A stretch of 64,000 nt of DNA from contig NZ_FOUG01000002.1 of NCBI RefSeq assembly GCF_900114785.1, positions 372,001 to 436,000 of the forward strand, given 5' to 3'. The stretch is from Variovorax sp. OV329. GTDB lineage: Bacteria; Pseudomonadota; Gammaproteobacteria; Burkholderiales; Burkholderiaceae_C. Position numbers and translations under genes: made by a program. The notes under the pieces are model-generated. The model saw nothing but the letters and a program-made list of their open reading frames with translations. It searched no databases and was not told where the DNA came from. Position 1 is the first letter of the stretch, and every line of letters starts with the position of its first letter. Below are positions 8,717 through 14,646 of the stretch, piece by piece.

Positions 8717-9787
8717 ATGAAGATCGCAGTCCTTCCCGGTGATGGCATCGGCACCGAGATCGTCGAGCAGGCCGTGCGCGTGCTGGGCGCGCTGGACCTG
8801 AAGTTCGAGATGGAGACCGCCGTGGTCGGCGGCGCCGCCTACGAGGCCAGCGGCCGTCCGCTGCCCGAGGCCACGCTCAAGCTGGCCAAGGAAGCCGACG
8901 CGGTGCTCTTCGGCGCCGTGGGCGACTGGAAGTACGACAAGCTGGAGCGCGCGCTGCGCCCCGAGCAGGCCATCCTGGGCCTGCGCAAGAACCTGGGCCT
9001 GTTCGCCAACTTCCGTCCCGCCATCTGCTACGAGCAGCTGACGCACGCCTCGAGCCTCAAGCCCGAGTTGGTGGCGGGCCTGGACATCCTGATCATCCGC
9101 GAGCTGACCGGCGACATCTACTTCGGCCAGCCGCGCGGCAAGCGCACCTCGCCCGACGGCAACTTCCCCGGTGCCGAGGAAGCCTTCGACACCATGCGCT
9201 ACACCCGCCCGGAGATCGAGCGCATCGCCCGCGTCGCCTTCGAGGCCGCGCGCAAGCGCAGCAAGCGCGTGACCAGCGTGGACAAGGCCAACGTGCTGGA
9301 GACCTTCCAGTTCTGGAAGGACGTGGTCACCGAGGTGCACAAGGACTATCCCGACATCGAGCTGGACCACATGTACGTGGACAACGCCGCCATGCAGCTG
9401 GTGAAGGCGCCCAAGAAGTTCGACGTGGTGGTCACCGGCAACATGTTCGGCGACATCCTCTCGGACGAGGCTGCCATGCTGACCGGCTCCATCGGCATGC
9501 TGCCTTCGGCATCGCTCAACGCCAGCAAGCAGGGCCTGTACGAACCCAGCCACGGCAGCGCCCCCGACATCGCCGGCAAGGGCGTGGCCAATCCGCTGGC
9601 CACCATCCTCTCGGCCGCGATGATGCTGCGCTTCTCGCTGGAGCAGGAAGAAGCTGCCCAGCGCATCGAGAACGCGGTCAAGAAGGTGCTGTCCCAGGGC
9701 CTGCGCACGCCGGACATCTACAGCGAAGGCACGACCAGGGTCGGAACGCGCGAGATGGGCGACGCGGTGCTCAAGGCACTCGGCTGA
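8717..9787 (+). CDS. leuB: 3-isopropylmalate dehydrogenase
   Basis: NAD-dependent oxidative decarboxylation of 3-isopropylmalate, third step of the leucine branch (356 aa). The N-terminus [15 protein letters not shown] is characteristic. [10 protein letters not shown] and the metal/substrate segment [19 protein letters not shown] near residues 242-260 identify the isocitrate/isopropylmalate dehydrogenase family. [10 protein letters not shown] and [13 protein letters not shown] complete the NAD site. It is last in leuCDB and followed by a GC-rich terminator. Confidence 0.97.
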
Positions 9788-9812
9788 TTGCCAGCCCTCG
9801 GGGCGCGAAGAC

Positions 9813-9838
9813 AGGGCGGCCGGGCGGCCGCCCTTTTT
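9813..9838 (+). terminator. Intrinsic terminator after leuB
   Basis: A nine-base-pair GC-rich stem, AGGGCGGCC with GGCCGCCCT, four-base loop GGGC, then a T tract. It sits between convergent leuB and the SRPBCC gene. The T tract favours termination of the plus-strand leu transcript. Confidence 0.88.
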
Positions 9839-9848
9839 CATGGGGTGT

Positions 9849-10247
9849 TCAACCCTTGGGCCGCTCGGCATGCCGCTTCATGGCGGCCAGCCCCTGCTCG
9901 ATCATGCCGGCGATGGCCGGCGCCATCTCGTGGGGCAGGAGGTCGGCGATCCAGACCACGCGGCAGTTCCCCGCGCCCTCGGGGAAGACCTGGGCGGACG
10001 CGTTGTAGTGCTTGAGCTGCCCTGCCGCCGTCCACGCCACCCGGCGATCGTCGTCGTTCACGTCGATGATCAGCTCGCGCGTCTTCACGCCGTTGGCGAA
10101 GGTGATGTCCCGGCCTTCGCCGTCCCACACGCACTCGATGACGAAGCCGGGCACCAGGCGCGTGTGCAGCGCACCGACGTCGCGCAGGGCGCTCCACAAC
10201 TCCTCGGGCGGCGCATGGATCAGGGTCTCGCGTCGGATGGATGCCAT
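9849..10247 (-). CDS. SRPBCC-family protein
   Basis: Small cytosolic protein (132 aa) of the START/polyketide-cyclase (SRPBCC) superfamily, which forms a helix-grip cavity for hydrophobic ligands. MASIRRETLIHAPPEELWSAL followed by an RLVPGFVIE segment is the typical N-terminal strand-helix of the fold. DDRRVAWTAAGQLKHYNAS forms the central strands, and the C-terminal helix is EMAPAIAGMIEQGLAAMKR. The ligand is unknown. It stands alone between leuB and asd on the opposite strand. I chose the ATG at 10247 because the upstream in-frame extension shows no family pattern. Confidence 0.8.
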   Translation of the reverse strand: MASIRRETLIHAPPEELWSALRDVGALHTRLVPGFVIECVWDGEGRDITFANGVKTRELIIDVNDDDRRVAWTAAGQLKHYNASAQVFPEGAGNCRVVWIADLLPHEMAPAIAGMIEQGLAAMKRHAERPKG

Positions 10248-10331
10248 CGAAGAGCTCCGCGGTGGTGTGGTAATCCTGCAAGTGTGAGCGCCTCGCGCCG
10301 CTTGACCAAGCGCGATTTCGCCACCCTCCGG

Positions 10332-10337
10332 TACAAT
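10332..10337 (+). promoter_or_regulatory. Candidate -10 box of the asd leader promoter
   Basis: TACAAT in a region between the divergent SRPBCC and asd genes. A TTGACC lies at 10302-10307, but the 24-base spacing is too long for a normal sigma-70 pair, so only the -10 is supported. A start about seven bases downstream would place the leader ATG (10346) at or near the 5' end of the RNA. Confidence 0.4.
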
Positions 10338-10345
10338 CGACGGCC

Positions 10346-10459
10346 ATGTTTGCCGCCCATCCGTTCCTGCTGAACACCCTGCCCGCCTCCGCGGTTGGCA
10401 AGGCTGCGCGCGCATCCATCGTTTCCTCCACCAAAACCACGACCAAGATTAAGGGCTGA
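10346..10459 (+). CDS. Putative leader peptide upstream of asd
   Basis: A 37-codon reading frame ending in [11 protein letters not shown] just before a TGA at 10457-10459. Four Thr, three Lys and one Ile fall in the last nine residues; these are products of the pathway that aspartate-semialdehyde dehydrogenase feeds. This resembles thrL-type attenuator peptides by composition. Downstream, 10464-10475 can pair with 10497-10508 (12 pairs, one G-U). The loop of that stem contains CCTTTC, complementary to the asd Shine-Dalgarno GAAAGG at 10546-10551. There is no U tract, so control would be translational or Rho-linked rather than a classical terminator. No strong Shine-Dalgarno precedes the ATG. 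Function is inference. Confidence 0.45.
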
Positions 10460-10560
10460 CCCAGCCTGGTTCGTCGTGCGCCTTTCCCTGGCCCCGGACG
10501 AGCCAGGCGGGCAGTCCCTTCGGCGCGGTCTCACTGTTTGACACTGAAAGGGCATCTGAA

Positions 10561-11691
10561 ATGAGCAAGTTGGTAGGGTTGGTCGGCTGGCGCGGCATGG
10601 TCGGCTCTGTGCTGATGGACCGCATGGTCGAGGAGAAGGACTTCGATCTCATCGAACCCCTGTTCTTCTCCACCTCCAACGCCGGCGGCAAGGCACCCGG
10701 CATGGCCAGGAACGAAGGCACCCTCCAGAACGCCTTCGACATCGCCGCCCTCAAGCGCTGCGACATCATCATCACGGCCCAGGGCGGCGACTACACCACC
10801 GAGGTGTTCCCCCGCCTGCGCGCCGAAGGCTGGAAGGGCCACTGGATCGATGCGGCCTCCACCCTGCGCATGAAGGATGACGCGGTCATCGTGCTTGACC
10901 CGGTCAACCTGCCCGTGATCAAGAACGCCCTGGCCAAGGGCGGCAACAACTGGATCGGCGGCAACTGCACCGTCAGCTGCATGCTGATGGGCGTTGGCGC
11001 GCTCTACAAGGCCGGCCTGGTCGAGTGGATGACCTCGATGACCTACCAGGCAGCCTCGGGCGGCGGCGCGCAGCACATGCGCGAACTGCTGACGCAGTAC
11101 GGCACGCTCAACGCCGAAGTGCGCGACCTGCTGCACGACCCGAAGTCCGCCATCCTGGAAATCGACCGCAAGGTCCTTGCAAAGCAGCAGAGCCTGTCGG
11201 CGCAGGAAACCGCCAACTTCGGCGTCCCGCTGGGCGGCTCGCTGATCCCCTGGATCGACAAGGACCTGGGCGACGGCATGAGCAAGGAAGAGTGGAAGGG
11301 CGGCGCCGAGACCAACAAGATCCTGGGCCAGGGCGCCGGCTTCGAAACGGCCGCGGTGCCGGTCGATGGCTTCTGCGTGCGCATCGGCGCCATGCGCTGC
11401 CACAGCCAGGCCCTGACCTTCAAGCTGAAGAAGGACGTGCCGCTGGCCGAGATCGAGGGCATGATCGCCGCCGACAACCAGTGGGTGAAGGTCGTTCCCA
11501 ACACCCGCGAGGCTTCGATCAAGGACCTGACACCGGTCGCCGTGACCGGCACCATGGACATCCCGGTCGGCCGCCTGCGCAAGCTGGCCATGGGCCCGGA
11601 GTATTTGGGTGCGTTCACCGTCGGCGATCAGCTCCTGTGGGGTGCTGCCGAGCCGCTGCGCCGCATGCTGCGGATCCTGCTGGAGGCCTGA
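10561..11691 (+). CDS. asd: Aspartate-semialdehyde dehydrogenase
   Basis: Reduces aspartyl phosphate to aspartate semialdehyde, the branch precursor of lysine/diaminopimelate, methionine, threonine and isoleucine (376 aa, the long Gram-negative type). [19 protein letters not shown] at the N-terminus is the NADP-binding fold. The catalytic cysteine lies in [16 protein letters not shown] near residues 132-147. [18 protein letters not shown] is the C-terminal active-site segment with the histidine acid/base. A GAAAGGG ribosome-binding site is eight bases upstream. The gene is preceded by the candidate leader peptide. Confidence 0.97.
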
Positions 11692-11699
11692 TGAGGGCT

Positions 11700-11724
11700 G
11701 CGGGTGCTAGTCTCCGGCACCCGC
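11700..11724 (+). terminator. Possible weak terminator after asd
   Basis: GCGGGTGC (11700-11707) pairs with GCACCCGC (11717-11724) around a nine-base loop, eight bases after the asd stop. There is no T tract, so it may be a Rho-dependent or 3'-stabilising hairpin rather than a full terminator. Confidence 0.4.
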
Positions 11725-11859
11725 CGTTGCTCACTTGCAACGACCAAAGTGCGACGAACGTCGTACTTGCCCGGTTAACAAGCGTTGCCGCCTTGTCATT
11801 GGCAGGGTTAAGGTGTTAACGTCCACTTACACTTTTGGGCCGGACCTGCCCCTATCAGC

Positions 11860-14646
11860 ATGACAAGACATTCGTTGCCTGCCGCCCCCGGGGTGGCGAC
11901 CCGTGCGATCTCGAAAAATCCTGGTCGTTGTCAGCTGAGTGTTCTGGGGGCTGCCGTGGCGCTCGCCCTGAGCACCCTGGCCACCGACGCGAGCGCCCTG
12001 GCCCTTGGCCGCATGAATGTCCGCTCGGCACTGGGCGAACCGCTGCGCGCCGAGATCGAGGTCACCGAGATCACCGCCGCCGAGGCCGACGGCCTGCGCA
12101 TCAACATCGCCTCGCCTTCGGCCTTCAATGCCGCTGGCGTCAACTACAACCCGGCCCTGGGCGACGTGCGCGTTTCGCTGCAGCGTCGCGCGGACGGTCG
12201 CTACGTCGTCAACCTGACGGGCAACCGCTCGATGAACGACCCCTTCATCGACCTGCTGCTGGAAGCGAACTGGAGTGCCGGCCGCGTGGTGCGCGACTAC
12301 ACGGTCCTGCTGGACCCGCCGGCCAGCCCCAAGTCGCAGGTGGCCATTTCCCCGATTGCTCCCCAACTGGCGCCCGCCGCGCCCGGCACGCTGCCGCGCT
12401 CCAGCCGCGCCGCCCGTGCCCAGGCCGCCCCGGCGACCCCGGTGGAAGCCGCCCCGGCGGCGCCCGCCCGGCAACGTGCCGCCGCTGCGCCCGCCGCGCC
12501 GGTTTCACCGGCCGAATCGCAAGTTCGCACCGGCAGCGGCGAAGAACAGCAGGTCACCGTCAAGGCCGGTGACACCGCTGGCAAGCTCGCCGCCACCTAC
12601 AAGCCGGCCGACGTCTCTCTCGACCAGATGCTGGTCGCCATGCTGCGCGCCAACCCGAACGCCTTCATCGGCGGCAACGTGAACCGCATCAAGGCCGGCT
12701 CGGTGCTCAACGTGCCCAGCGCCGCGCAGGCGGGCTCGGTCACGGGTGACGATGCCAAGCGCACCGTCACGGCCCAGAGCCAGGACTTCAACCAGTACCG
12801 CCGCCGCCTGGCCGAGAACGCCCCCGCCTCGCGCGTGGAGGGGGCTGACCGCCAGGCTGCAGGCAAGCTGCAGGCCAACGTGGAAGACCGCAATGCGGCT
12901 GCCGCTTCGCCCGACAAGCTCACCATCAGCCAAGGCAATGCCGGCGCCAAGGCGGCCGACGACAAGCTGGTCGCCAACCGCCAGTCCGCTGCCGACAGCT
13001 CGCGCGTGGCCGAACTGTCCAAGAACCTGAACGACCTGAACAAGCTGCAGGCCGCCAGCGGCGCCCCCGGTGCAGCACCCGCCGGCTCGGCAGTTGCGCC
13101 CGCCGCTGCACCTGGCGCTGCACCGCCTGCCGCGGGCGTTGCGACTCCGGCCGGCCTGAATCCCGCGGCACCCGCCGCTGCCCCCGCAGCCGCCGCACAA
13201 GGCGCCCCCGCAGCCGGCACCCCGCCTGCGCCGACGCCTGCTGCCGCCGGTGCGGGCGCCACGCCTGCCGCTACGCCGGGCACGCCCGCCCCGGCTGCCG
13301 GCGCCGACGCCGCAGCAGCACCGGGCGCCAGTCCGGCCGCCGCTGCCGACGCTTCCGCCGCCGCACCGGCACCTGCCGCACCCGCGACGCCGCCCCCGGC
13401 CGCTGTCGCCCCGCCCAAGCCGAAGGTGGCGGCACCTCCGCCGCCCCCGCCCAAGGGCTTCTTCGACGATCTGATGGACAACCCGCTGGCCCTGGGTGGT
13501 GGCGGCTTGCTCGTCGTGCTGCTGGGCTGGCTGGGCTACCGCGTGGCCAGCCGCCGCCGTGCAAATTCCAGTGAAAGCATCTTCCTGGAAAGCCGCATCC
13601 CGAAGGACTCCTTCTTCGGCAGCAGCGGCGGCGAGTCGGTGGACACCAAGAACCAGGGCCTGTCGGCCACGTCCTCGATGTCCTACTCGCCCAGCCAGCT
13701 GGATGCCGGCGACGTGGACCCGGTCGCCGAGGCCGACGTCTACCTGGCCTACGGCCGCGACCTGCAGGCCGAGGAAATCCTGCGCGAGGCGCTGCGCATC
13801 AATCCCGAGCGCAGCGCCATCCACCTCAAGCTGCTCGAGATCCATGCCAAGCGCCGTGACCTGCGCGCCTACGAGGCCCTGGCTTCGGACGTGCACAAGC
13901 TGACCGGCGGCTCCGGCACCGAGTGGGCCCGCGTGGTGGAACTGGGCCGAGACCTGGACCCGGGCAACCCGCTGTACCAACCCTCTTCCGGCGCATCTGC
14001 AGTGACGGCCGCGGCCCCGGTCGTTTCCGCGCCCGCCGCGCCGTCGATCTCCGCGCCCATTCCGCTGACGCCCGTGACGGCGCCGGCGCCGCTGGAGCCC
14101 CAGCCGGCCTTCGTGCCCTCGGTGGCCCCGCTGGACTTCGACCTGGAACTCGACAAGCCCGCCACCAAGCCCACGCCCCTGACGGCCAGCCTGCCCCCCG
14201 TGGCAGCCCCCGCCGTCGCGGCCGCGGCTGCCCGCGGTGCAATGAACGGCGCCGGCCGCCACATGGCCGACCTGGAAAACGACTTCGACACCGCCCCGGC
14301 CGCCCTGGAGCCCTCGGCACGCCCGGTCCCGCGCATTTCAGCCGACGACGAGGAACACACCCAGCCCGCCACCCTGCGTGCCGGCCTGCCGGGCGACTCG
14401 GGCTTCGTCGAGTTCGACATGAGCACCCGCGGCGGCTCGCTGGGCACCCACACCTCGCCCGCCCGCCTGGAACCCGCCTTCGAGGACAGCGGCGAGAGCC
14501 CGCACGCGATCAAGCTGACCCTGGCGCGCGAACTGCACGCCCTGGGCGATGCCGAAGGCGCCCGCTCGCTGGTCGAGGAAGTGGCCGCCGAGAGCACCGG
14601 CGACATGCGCGCCCAGGCGCAGCAGCTGCTCGGCCAGCTGCGCTGA
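11860..14646 (+). CDS. fimV: FimV-like peptidoglycan-binding polarity/pilus assembly protein
   Basis: Large inner-membrane protein (928 aa) of the FimV family, which organises type IV pili and type II secretion at the pole. Order of parts: hydrophobic signal segment about residues 26-50; conserved FimV N-domain beginning GRMNVRSALGEPLRAEIE; LysM-like domain about 228-285; long Ala/Pro-rich linker about 395-535; one transmembrane helix about 545-566; cytoplasmic TPR-like region from about 620 (ADVYLAYGRDLQAEEILREAL); second Ala/Pro linker; conserved C-terminal FimV motif about 885-928. The start lacks a clear Shine-Dalgarno. It sits between asd and truA, the usual position in this family. Confidence 0.92.
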   Translation: MTRHSLPAAPGVATRAISKNPGRCQLSVLGAAVALALSTLATDASALALGRMNVRSALGEPLRAEIEVTEITAAEADGLRINIASPSAFNAAGVNYNPALGDVRVSLQRRADGRYVVNLTGNRSMNDPFIDLLLEANWSAGRVVRDYTVLLDPPASPKSQVAISPIAPQLAPAAPGTLPRSSRAARAQAAPATPVEAAPAAPARQRAAAAPAAPVSPAESQVRTGSGEEQQVTVKAGDTAGKLAATYKPADVSLDQMLVAMLRANPNAFIGGNVNRIKAGSVLNVPSAAQAGSVTGDDAKRTVTAQSQDFNQYRRRLAENAPASRVEGADRQAAGKLQANVEDRNAAAASPDKLTISQGNAGAKAADDKLVANRQSAADSSRVAELSKNLNDLNKLQAASGAPGAAPAGSAVAPAAAPGAAPPAAGVATPAGLNPAAPAAAPAAAAQGAPAAGTPPAPTPAAAGAGATPAATPGTPAPAAGADAAAAPGASPAAAADASAAAPAPAAPATPPPAAVAPPKPKVAAPPPPPPKGFFDDLMDNPLALGGGGLLVVLLGWLGYRVASRRRANSSESIFLESRIPKDSFFGSSGGESVDTKNQGLSATSSMSYSPSQLDAGDVDPVAEADVYLAYGRDLQAEEILREALRINPERSAIHLKLLEIHAKRRDLRAYEALASDVHKLTGGSGTEWARVVELGRDLDPGNPLYQPSSGASAVTAAAPVVSAPAAPSISAPIPLTPVTAPAPLEPQPAFVPSVAPLDFDLELDKPATKPTPLTASLPPVAAPAVAAAAARGAMNGAGRHMADLENDFDTAPAALEPSARPVPRISADDEEHTQPATLRAGLPGDSGFVEFDMSTRGGSLGTHTSPARLEPAFEDSGESPHAIKLTLARELHALGDAEGARSLVEEVAAESTGDMRAQAQQLLGQLR

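Follow-up and report, generated by a model that had tools for sequence, protein, structure and literature searches.

The gene for aspartate-semialdehyde dehydrogenase (asd) in Variovorax sp. OV329 is preceded by a short open reading frame that quite probably encodes an amino-acid-sensing leader peptide, which would set asd expression by ribosome stalling. Asd acts at the branch point of the aspartate family, and the last nine codons of the frame, TKTTTKIKG, comprise four Thr, three Lys and one Ile. The locus displays two of the features by which attenuator leaders are recognized, a short ORF with end-product codons ahead of a biosynthetic gene and sensor residues that are conserved in relatives. 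A first-pass annotation of the window, the whole 64,000-nucleotide stretch of DNA analyzed here, had read the locus as stalling control by end products of the aspartate family; the retention of the run in relatives and a covarying stem behind the stop codon support this reading, with stalling as the step that we infer.

Loci compared

Regions preceding asd were gathered from a collection scan, from which the best 80 of 594 loci were taken (mostly Comamonadaceae), and further loci were added from whole-genome searches. The latter found asd in 297 of 299 genomes; out of 150 places listed, the best 30 were taken automatically and 60 were picked by hand, as were 20 order-level places. Loci sharing identical last 200 bases before asd were counted once. 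The resulting 180 distinct loci, 162 from the family of the window and 18 from other families of the order, are not a random sample and lean towards asd genes close to that of the window. A run was scored when at least five of the last nine residues were Thr, Lys or Ile and the frame ended within 170 nt before asd. The run forms the end of a small ORF in 87 family loci (stand-alone form) and the C-terminus of LeuB, assigned via a LeuB motif in the open frame, in 66 (fused form). With nine loci of neither form, this final set of 162 superseded an earlier one of 55 fused, 78 stand-alone and 7 without a run.

The leader locus in Variovorax

Every element of the frame that the first-pass annotation had described, 37 codons behind a TACAAT box with a Thr/Lys/Ile run at the end, was recovered in place, from the ATG at 10346 to the TGA stop codon at 10457-10459 as read from the sequence (Table 1). 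The 12-pair stem that it had drawn after the stop codon (stem A) is likewise present, one of its pairs being G-U. The peptide matched no NCBIfam, Pfam or PHROGs family. Against Rfam, the leader region of the window drew no hit at E 5, the four matches elsewhere in 9500-12000 being at chance level, and 16 related loci gave none at E 0.5.

The two frames 5' of leuB are, judging by their sequences, leuC and leuD. LeuB of the window ends without a sensor run, and leuB codons 9593-9628 read GCCACCATC, not GCTACAATC. Because a Polyketide_cyc2 family gene lies between leuB and asd on the opposite strand, the close leuB-asd spacing seen in fused-form relatives is broken in the window, and the free leader ORF may stand in here for the LeuB tail.

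Table 1. Features of the asd leader region, in window coordinates
Feature	Position	Strand	Basis or remark
leuB	8717..9787	+	Iso_dh match; upstream of leader
Polyketide_cyc2 family gene	9849-10247	-	between leuB and leader
-10 box TACAAT of leader promoter	10332..10337	+	TCCGG before it; no recognizable -35
Leader peptide ORF, 37 aa, probably leaderless	10346..10459	+	window sequence, relatives
Sensor codons TKTTTKIKG, last nine of leader	10430..10456	+	
Hairpin over stop codon, GGGCUG (10453-10458) with CAGCCU (10462-10467)	10453..10467	+	last codon covaries with post-stop bases
Segment 1, 5' arm of stem A, GCCTGGTTCGTC	10464..10475	+	
Possible anti-Shine-Dalgarno CCTTTC	10481..10486	+	complementary to GAAAGG 10546-10551; weak
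Segment 2, CCTGGC	10487..10492	+	can pair with GCCAGG 10502-10507 (stem B), excluding stem A; suggestive
Segment 3, 3' arm of stem A, shared with stem B, GACGAGCCAGGC	10497..10508	+	
asd ribosome-binding site GAAAGGG	10546..10552	+	window sequence
asd, aspartate-semialdehyde dehydrogenase, proposed regulated gene	10561..11691	+	TIGR01745 match

Conservation of the sensor run

Comparison of sequences across the family establishes that the run is conserved and that its amino acids, rather than its bases, are under choice. A run precedes asd in 153 of the 162 distinct family loci, so relatives do not show the lack of conservation of the frame or of its Thr/Lys codons that the first-pass annotation had held would tell against it. 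At least six of the nine residues are Thr, Lys or Ile in 152 of the 162, versus 2 of 1100 random windows drawn from 99 of those loci. No run was found at L062, L110, L126, L131, L140, L144, L145, L172 and L187. The last eight codons have a pN/pS of 0.36 among 60 distinct stand-alone tails and of 0.60 among 49 distinct fused tails. The leader outside the run is weakly constrained, with values of 0.78 for codons 2-12 and 0.85 for codons 13-24 in 47 leaders of 33 residues.

Within the final nine positions of the 153 tails, Thr (555), Lys (305) and Ile (248) predominate, followed by Gly (145), Ser (58) and Ala (44). Codons for Thr, Lys and Ile all start with A, and those for Asn, Met and Arg are one base away; since the latter residues are nearly absent from the same positions (0, 3 and 3, respectively), it is the amino acid that is under selection. 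Among tails the three residues replace one another, as in KTTTIKG, KKTITG, GKTITKS and TTTKTIKS, an interchange that fits the sensing of three end products.

Probably leaderless stand-alone leaders

Of the 87 stand-alone loci, 85 have a -10-like hexamer 3-10 nt upstream of an ATG in frame; the distance is 8 nt in 45, 7 in 17, 6 in 15, 9 in 5, 10 in 2 and 3 in 1. The remaining two (L077 and L137) have no such hexamer within 3-10 nt of the ATG. A -10 box this close to the start codon, at 6-9 nt in 82 of 87 loci, leaves no room for a ribosome-binding site and fits the earlier suggestion that the frame might be leaderless; stand-alone leaders, that of the window included, are probably translated from a leaderless mRNA. 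A pyrimidine (C or T) precedes the ATG in 80 of 85 loci, and the A of the ATG would thus be the first good start purine. Among 73 less similar upstream sequences, which were picked using the hexamer itself, the only other conserved stretch is TCCGc just 5' of it, and no -35 box is present. A pattern scan of window positions 10000-10800 also gave no sigma-70 promoter match with a -35 element.

Measured from the ATG next to the -10 box, stand-alone ORFs range from 11 to about 40 residues. The 11-residue leaders MNKIKTTGTKG (L023) and MNAIKTTGTKG (L070) lie right after leuB, with TACAAT directly at the leuB stop codon.

LeuB tails as proposed embedded leaders

In fused loci the leuB match ends 98-161 nt before asd (28 loci measured). 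The codons for one peptide motif of LeuB spell TACAAT, with Thr written as ACA, in 62 of the 64 fused loci that show the motif; L103 and L120 have CACCAT instead. The same hexamer in leuB occurs in 0 of 66 stand-alone loci, in 0 of 13 loci from other families and in 1 of 8 loci without a run (L110). ACA is otherwise rare: of the 247 Thr codons counted over the 250 leuB codons ahead of the motif, in fused loci long enough to measure, 3 are ACA. This association with the fused form points to a likely promoter inside leuB. At 13 nt 3' of the hexamer stands ATG ATG, in frame with LeuB, so that such a transcript would encode the last 60-70 LeuB residues as a leader peptide.

A tree of LeuB and Asd, built with the tail left out, covers 81 loci (51 stand-alone, 28 fused and 2 without a run). 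The two forms alternate on this tree with at least 6 changes, 4 of which are forced by strongly supported branches, and Hydrogenophaga holds both. Supported branches yield 4 independent pairs, in which the leuB hexamer accompanies the fused form on average 3.9 times out of 4 and is never opposed to it; so few pairs cannot reach significance (p 0.125). It is more likely than not that in many genera the LeuB tail doubles as a sensor. A promoter in synonymous leuB codons would yield a near-leaderless leader of 60-70 residues, the Thr/Lys/Ile tail of which controls asd, and the sensor would have changed more than once from such an embedded state to a free leaderless ORF of as few as 11 residues, or back, with the RNA switch staying the same. 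Recruitment of the LeuB end as a leader would also explain why the tail varies freely among three amino acids.

RNA structure behind the stop codon

Covariation in the stem had been named by the first-pass annotation as a check on its reading, and stem A does covary. In an alignment of 42 diverse sequences, 90% of its cells are paired and both-sided changes occur in 6 of 10 pairs; versions of the stem slid along the sequence have 23-50% of cells paired, yet show double changes in up to 5 pairs and once in the same 8 cells. None of 500 shuffles reached the counts of stem A, 6 of 500 its pair types and 1 of 500 its score. In a separate comparison of pairing scores, stem A has 25.4 and shuffles 15.0 (sd 4.1). 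RNAalifold gave only short consensus helices on the full alignment and did not return the full stem A on the fused subset, a shortfall ascribed to clade-specific inserts that break the alignment.

The hairpin over the stop codon is conserved, though its pairing score is just moderately above that of shuffles (13.5 vs 10.7, sd 2.4). The pattern for its partner position allowed only C or U, which made 18 of 22 AGC, 120 of 129 GGC and 0 of 2 CGC loci scorable. With AGC as the last codon, the partner is U in 18 of 18 scorable loci, much of this group being one clade, so that these are not independent events; with GGC, the partner is C in 83 and U in 37 of the 120. The two CGC loci (L078, L176) carry GCG or CGC repeats after the stop codon that by eye are able to pair. 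This pattern suggests that RNA pairing determines which residue, Gly, Ser or Arg, ends the peptide.

Stem B, the competing pairing of segments 2 and 3, has 83% of its cells paired, and its covariation is not significant. A three-segment test scored 68 of the 87 stand-alone loci: where segment 3 reads CCAGG, a U is available in segment 1 as well as in segment 2 in 15 of 15 loci, and where it reads CCGGG, segment 2 has U in 14 of 53. The wider set, in which 108 of 153 loci were scored, includes three exceptions (L105, L142, L184). Since these loci are related, the three-way co-variation is no more than suggestive.

Folding predictions favor the switch in part, depending on the ribosome edge assumed. 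When folding starts from the edge of a ribosome stalled in the run, segment 3 is predicted to pair with segment 1 with a mean of 0.94 in stand-alone and 0.69 in fused loci. If instead the ribosome sits at the stop codon and its edge is set at 12 nt, this pairing falls to 0.16 and 0.14, respectively, and that of segment 3 with segment 2 increases to 0.34 and 0.55; an edge of 9 nt leaves pairing between segments 3 and 1 nearly as it was (0.77 and 0.61). Many stand-alone relatives, e.g., L016 and L031, have in addition an AAACAGT..ACTGTTT hairpin or a variant of it just 5' of the ribosome-binding site, between stem B and the asd start.

Proposed mechanism and output step

In the proposed mechanism, transcription from the TACAAT promoter would begin at the leader ATG or no more than a few bases from it, and translation would initiate on a leaderless mRNA. 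In related genera with the fused form, the sensor codons would be the last codons of leuB, read both from the intra-leuB promoter transcript and from the full leuB mRNA. A shortage of charged tRNA-Thr, tRNA-Lys or tRNA-Ile would make the ribosome stall in the run just before the stop codon, leaving segment 1 free to pair with segment 3 as stem A, which is taken to be the ON state for asd. When the amino acids are plentiful, a ribosome at the stop codon would cover the first part of segment 1 and prevent stem A, and segment 3 could then pair with segment 2. Stem B is taken to be the OFF state, in which the asd ribosome-binding site is probably blocked by the C-rich stretch adjoining segment 2; the main alternative for this step is Rho-dependent termination.

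A translation block appears the likelier output of the two. The complementarity between CCTTTC and the GAAAGG of asd that the first-pass annotation had pointed out stands in the window; as a pairing shared across genomes it holds up weakly. A C-rich stretch able to pair with the asd ribosome-binding site occurs in most of the 153 loci with a run. When binding sites were swapped among loci, the true partners were beaten by 0 of 200 swaps in the fused set, 20 of 200 in the stand-alone set and 4 of 200 overall. In the stalled state, the predicted access to the binding site goes up in 31 of 86 stand-alone loci and down in 9 (L173, with no recognized site, was left out); among the 66 fused loci it goes up in 8 and down in 7, so that the modeled effect is weak.

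The most serious rival to this translation block keeps the sensor peptide but has Rho terminate transcription in the C-rich stretch that follows the stop codon; it is given a lesser though substantial chance. It would suit the 16 of 153 loci in which pairing to the binding site is poor, many of them Roseateles- or Rubrivivax-like with sites such as AAAGGA, as well as the missing U-tract terminator of the window; the complementarity kept in most of the 153 loci speaks against it. The earlier remark that the leader lacks a U-tract terminator agrees with a pattern scan, which found no terminator on the plus strand in window positions 10000-10800, and thus not the intrinsic terminator of thrL-, trpL- and hisL-type attenuators.

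The same scan makes classical transcription attenuation unlikely. A thrL-like intrinsic terminator would share the peptide logic of the asd leader, and T-rich stretches do precede asd in some clades among the loci listed. By eye, these stretches in relatives lie some 10-25 nt after stem B, and with no terminator on the plus strand in window positions 10000-10800 a classical terminator was rejected.

The remaining two readings concern the peptide itself. Arrest peptides of the SecM, TnaC and ErmCL type need fixed residues near the C-terminus, with which the nascent chain itself stalls the ribosome in response to a small molecule. The asd leader resembles them in having its conserved residues at the extreme C-terminus, but Thr, Lys and Ile interchange in the tails and two relatives make do with leaders of only 11 residues; an arrest peptide was rejected on these grounds and is considered very improbable. 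Still less credible is the reading of the run as a mere RNA feature (an A-rich strand) or a side effect of LeuB with no sensing involved, which could appeal to the initial A of every Thr, Lys and Ile codon but is opposed by the scarcity of Asn, Met and Arg and by the presence of the run in two unrelated contexts, the LeuB tail and the small ORF. Amino acid sensing by ribosome stalling, with a translation block as its likelier output, is thus the preferred reading.

Distribution across genomes

At E 0.001, a covariance model of the element has matches in 240 of 298 genomes of the family, covering 112 of its 126 genera; the other 58 genomes have none at this threshold. The genome of the window has one strong site, before asd (E 3e-13); the next is partial (0.018). 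All 20 element sites that were fetched lie just before asd, which in 17 is 65-73% identical to that of the window. A search of 140 genomes of the order gave matches in 10 at E 0.01, of which four are strong, all from the family of the window, and the other six (E 0.003-0.009) are near chance.

Frames rich in Thr, Lys and Ile also precede asd in two other families of the order, namely f31 in 7 of 13 loci (L211, L212, L214-L217, L221), e.g., ..VITKTITTKTIIKR, and f13 in 3 of 3 (L208-L210). In the first 18 loci examined from other families, 16 have no such frame, and L159 (f31) and L166 (f13) have one. Six of the f31 frames carry -10-like boxes (TAGACT, TATATT, TAAACT) 6-8 nt before the ATG, and several of the f13 and f31 frames share a CTTCCCCGC/GCGGGGAAG hairpin after the stop codon.

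Relation to known leaders

The asd leader is like thrL of thrABC in that a short peptide with Thr/Ile codon runs precedes an aspartate-family gene and, in the proposed mechanism, the position of the ribosome decides between RNA structures. Unlike thrL, it precedes asd rather than thrABC, adds Lys codons, has its ATG close to the promoter and lacks a U-tract terminator; in many relatives its sensor codons are moreover the LeuB tail. The thr leaders of E. coli and V. natriegens are described in PMC12925634. Leaderless attenuator peptides are already known from Sinorhizobium meliloti, in which, according to PMC7298713, the rnTrpL RNA starts with the ATG of the leader ORF for peTrpL. The asd leader is probably leaderless in the same manner, whereas peTrpL senses Trp, is encoded by a free-standing small ORF and belongs to another bacterial class.

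A transcription-start study of Burkholderia cenocepacia (PMC4603805) names leaderless genes, and its main text holds no match for asd or for a leader peptide; passages of PMC8632094 do not mention asd. Searches of open-licence PMC papers, which fall short of proving absence, turned up no report of a leader peptide ahead of asd in this order and no earlier description of the embedded LeuB-tail form.

Implications

A single sensor reading Thr, Lys and Ile together before asd would constitute multivalent attenuation. The fused form suggests that evolution can turn the end of a normal enzyme gene into a regulatory leader, with the promoter hidden in synonymous codons, and the repeated switches between forms lend themselves to studying the origin of attenuators as a natural test set. 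The locus also serves as a warning that, in operon genes, C-terminal tails and synonymous codons can have a regulatory role.
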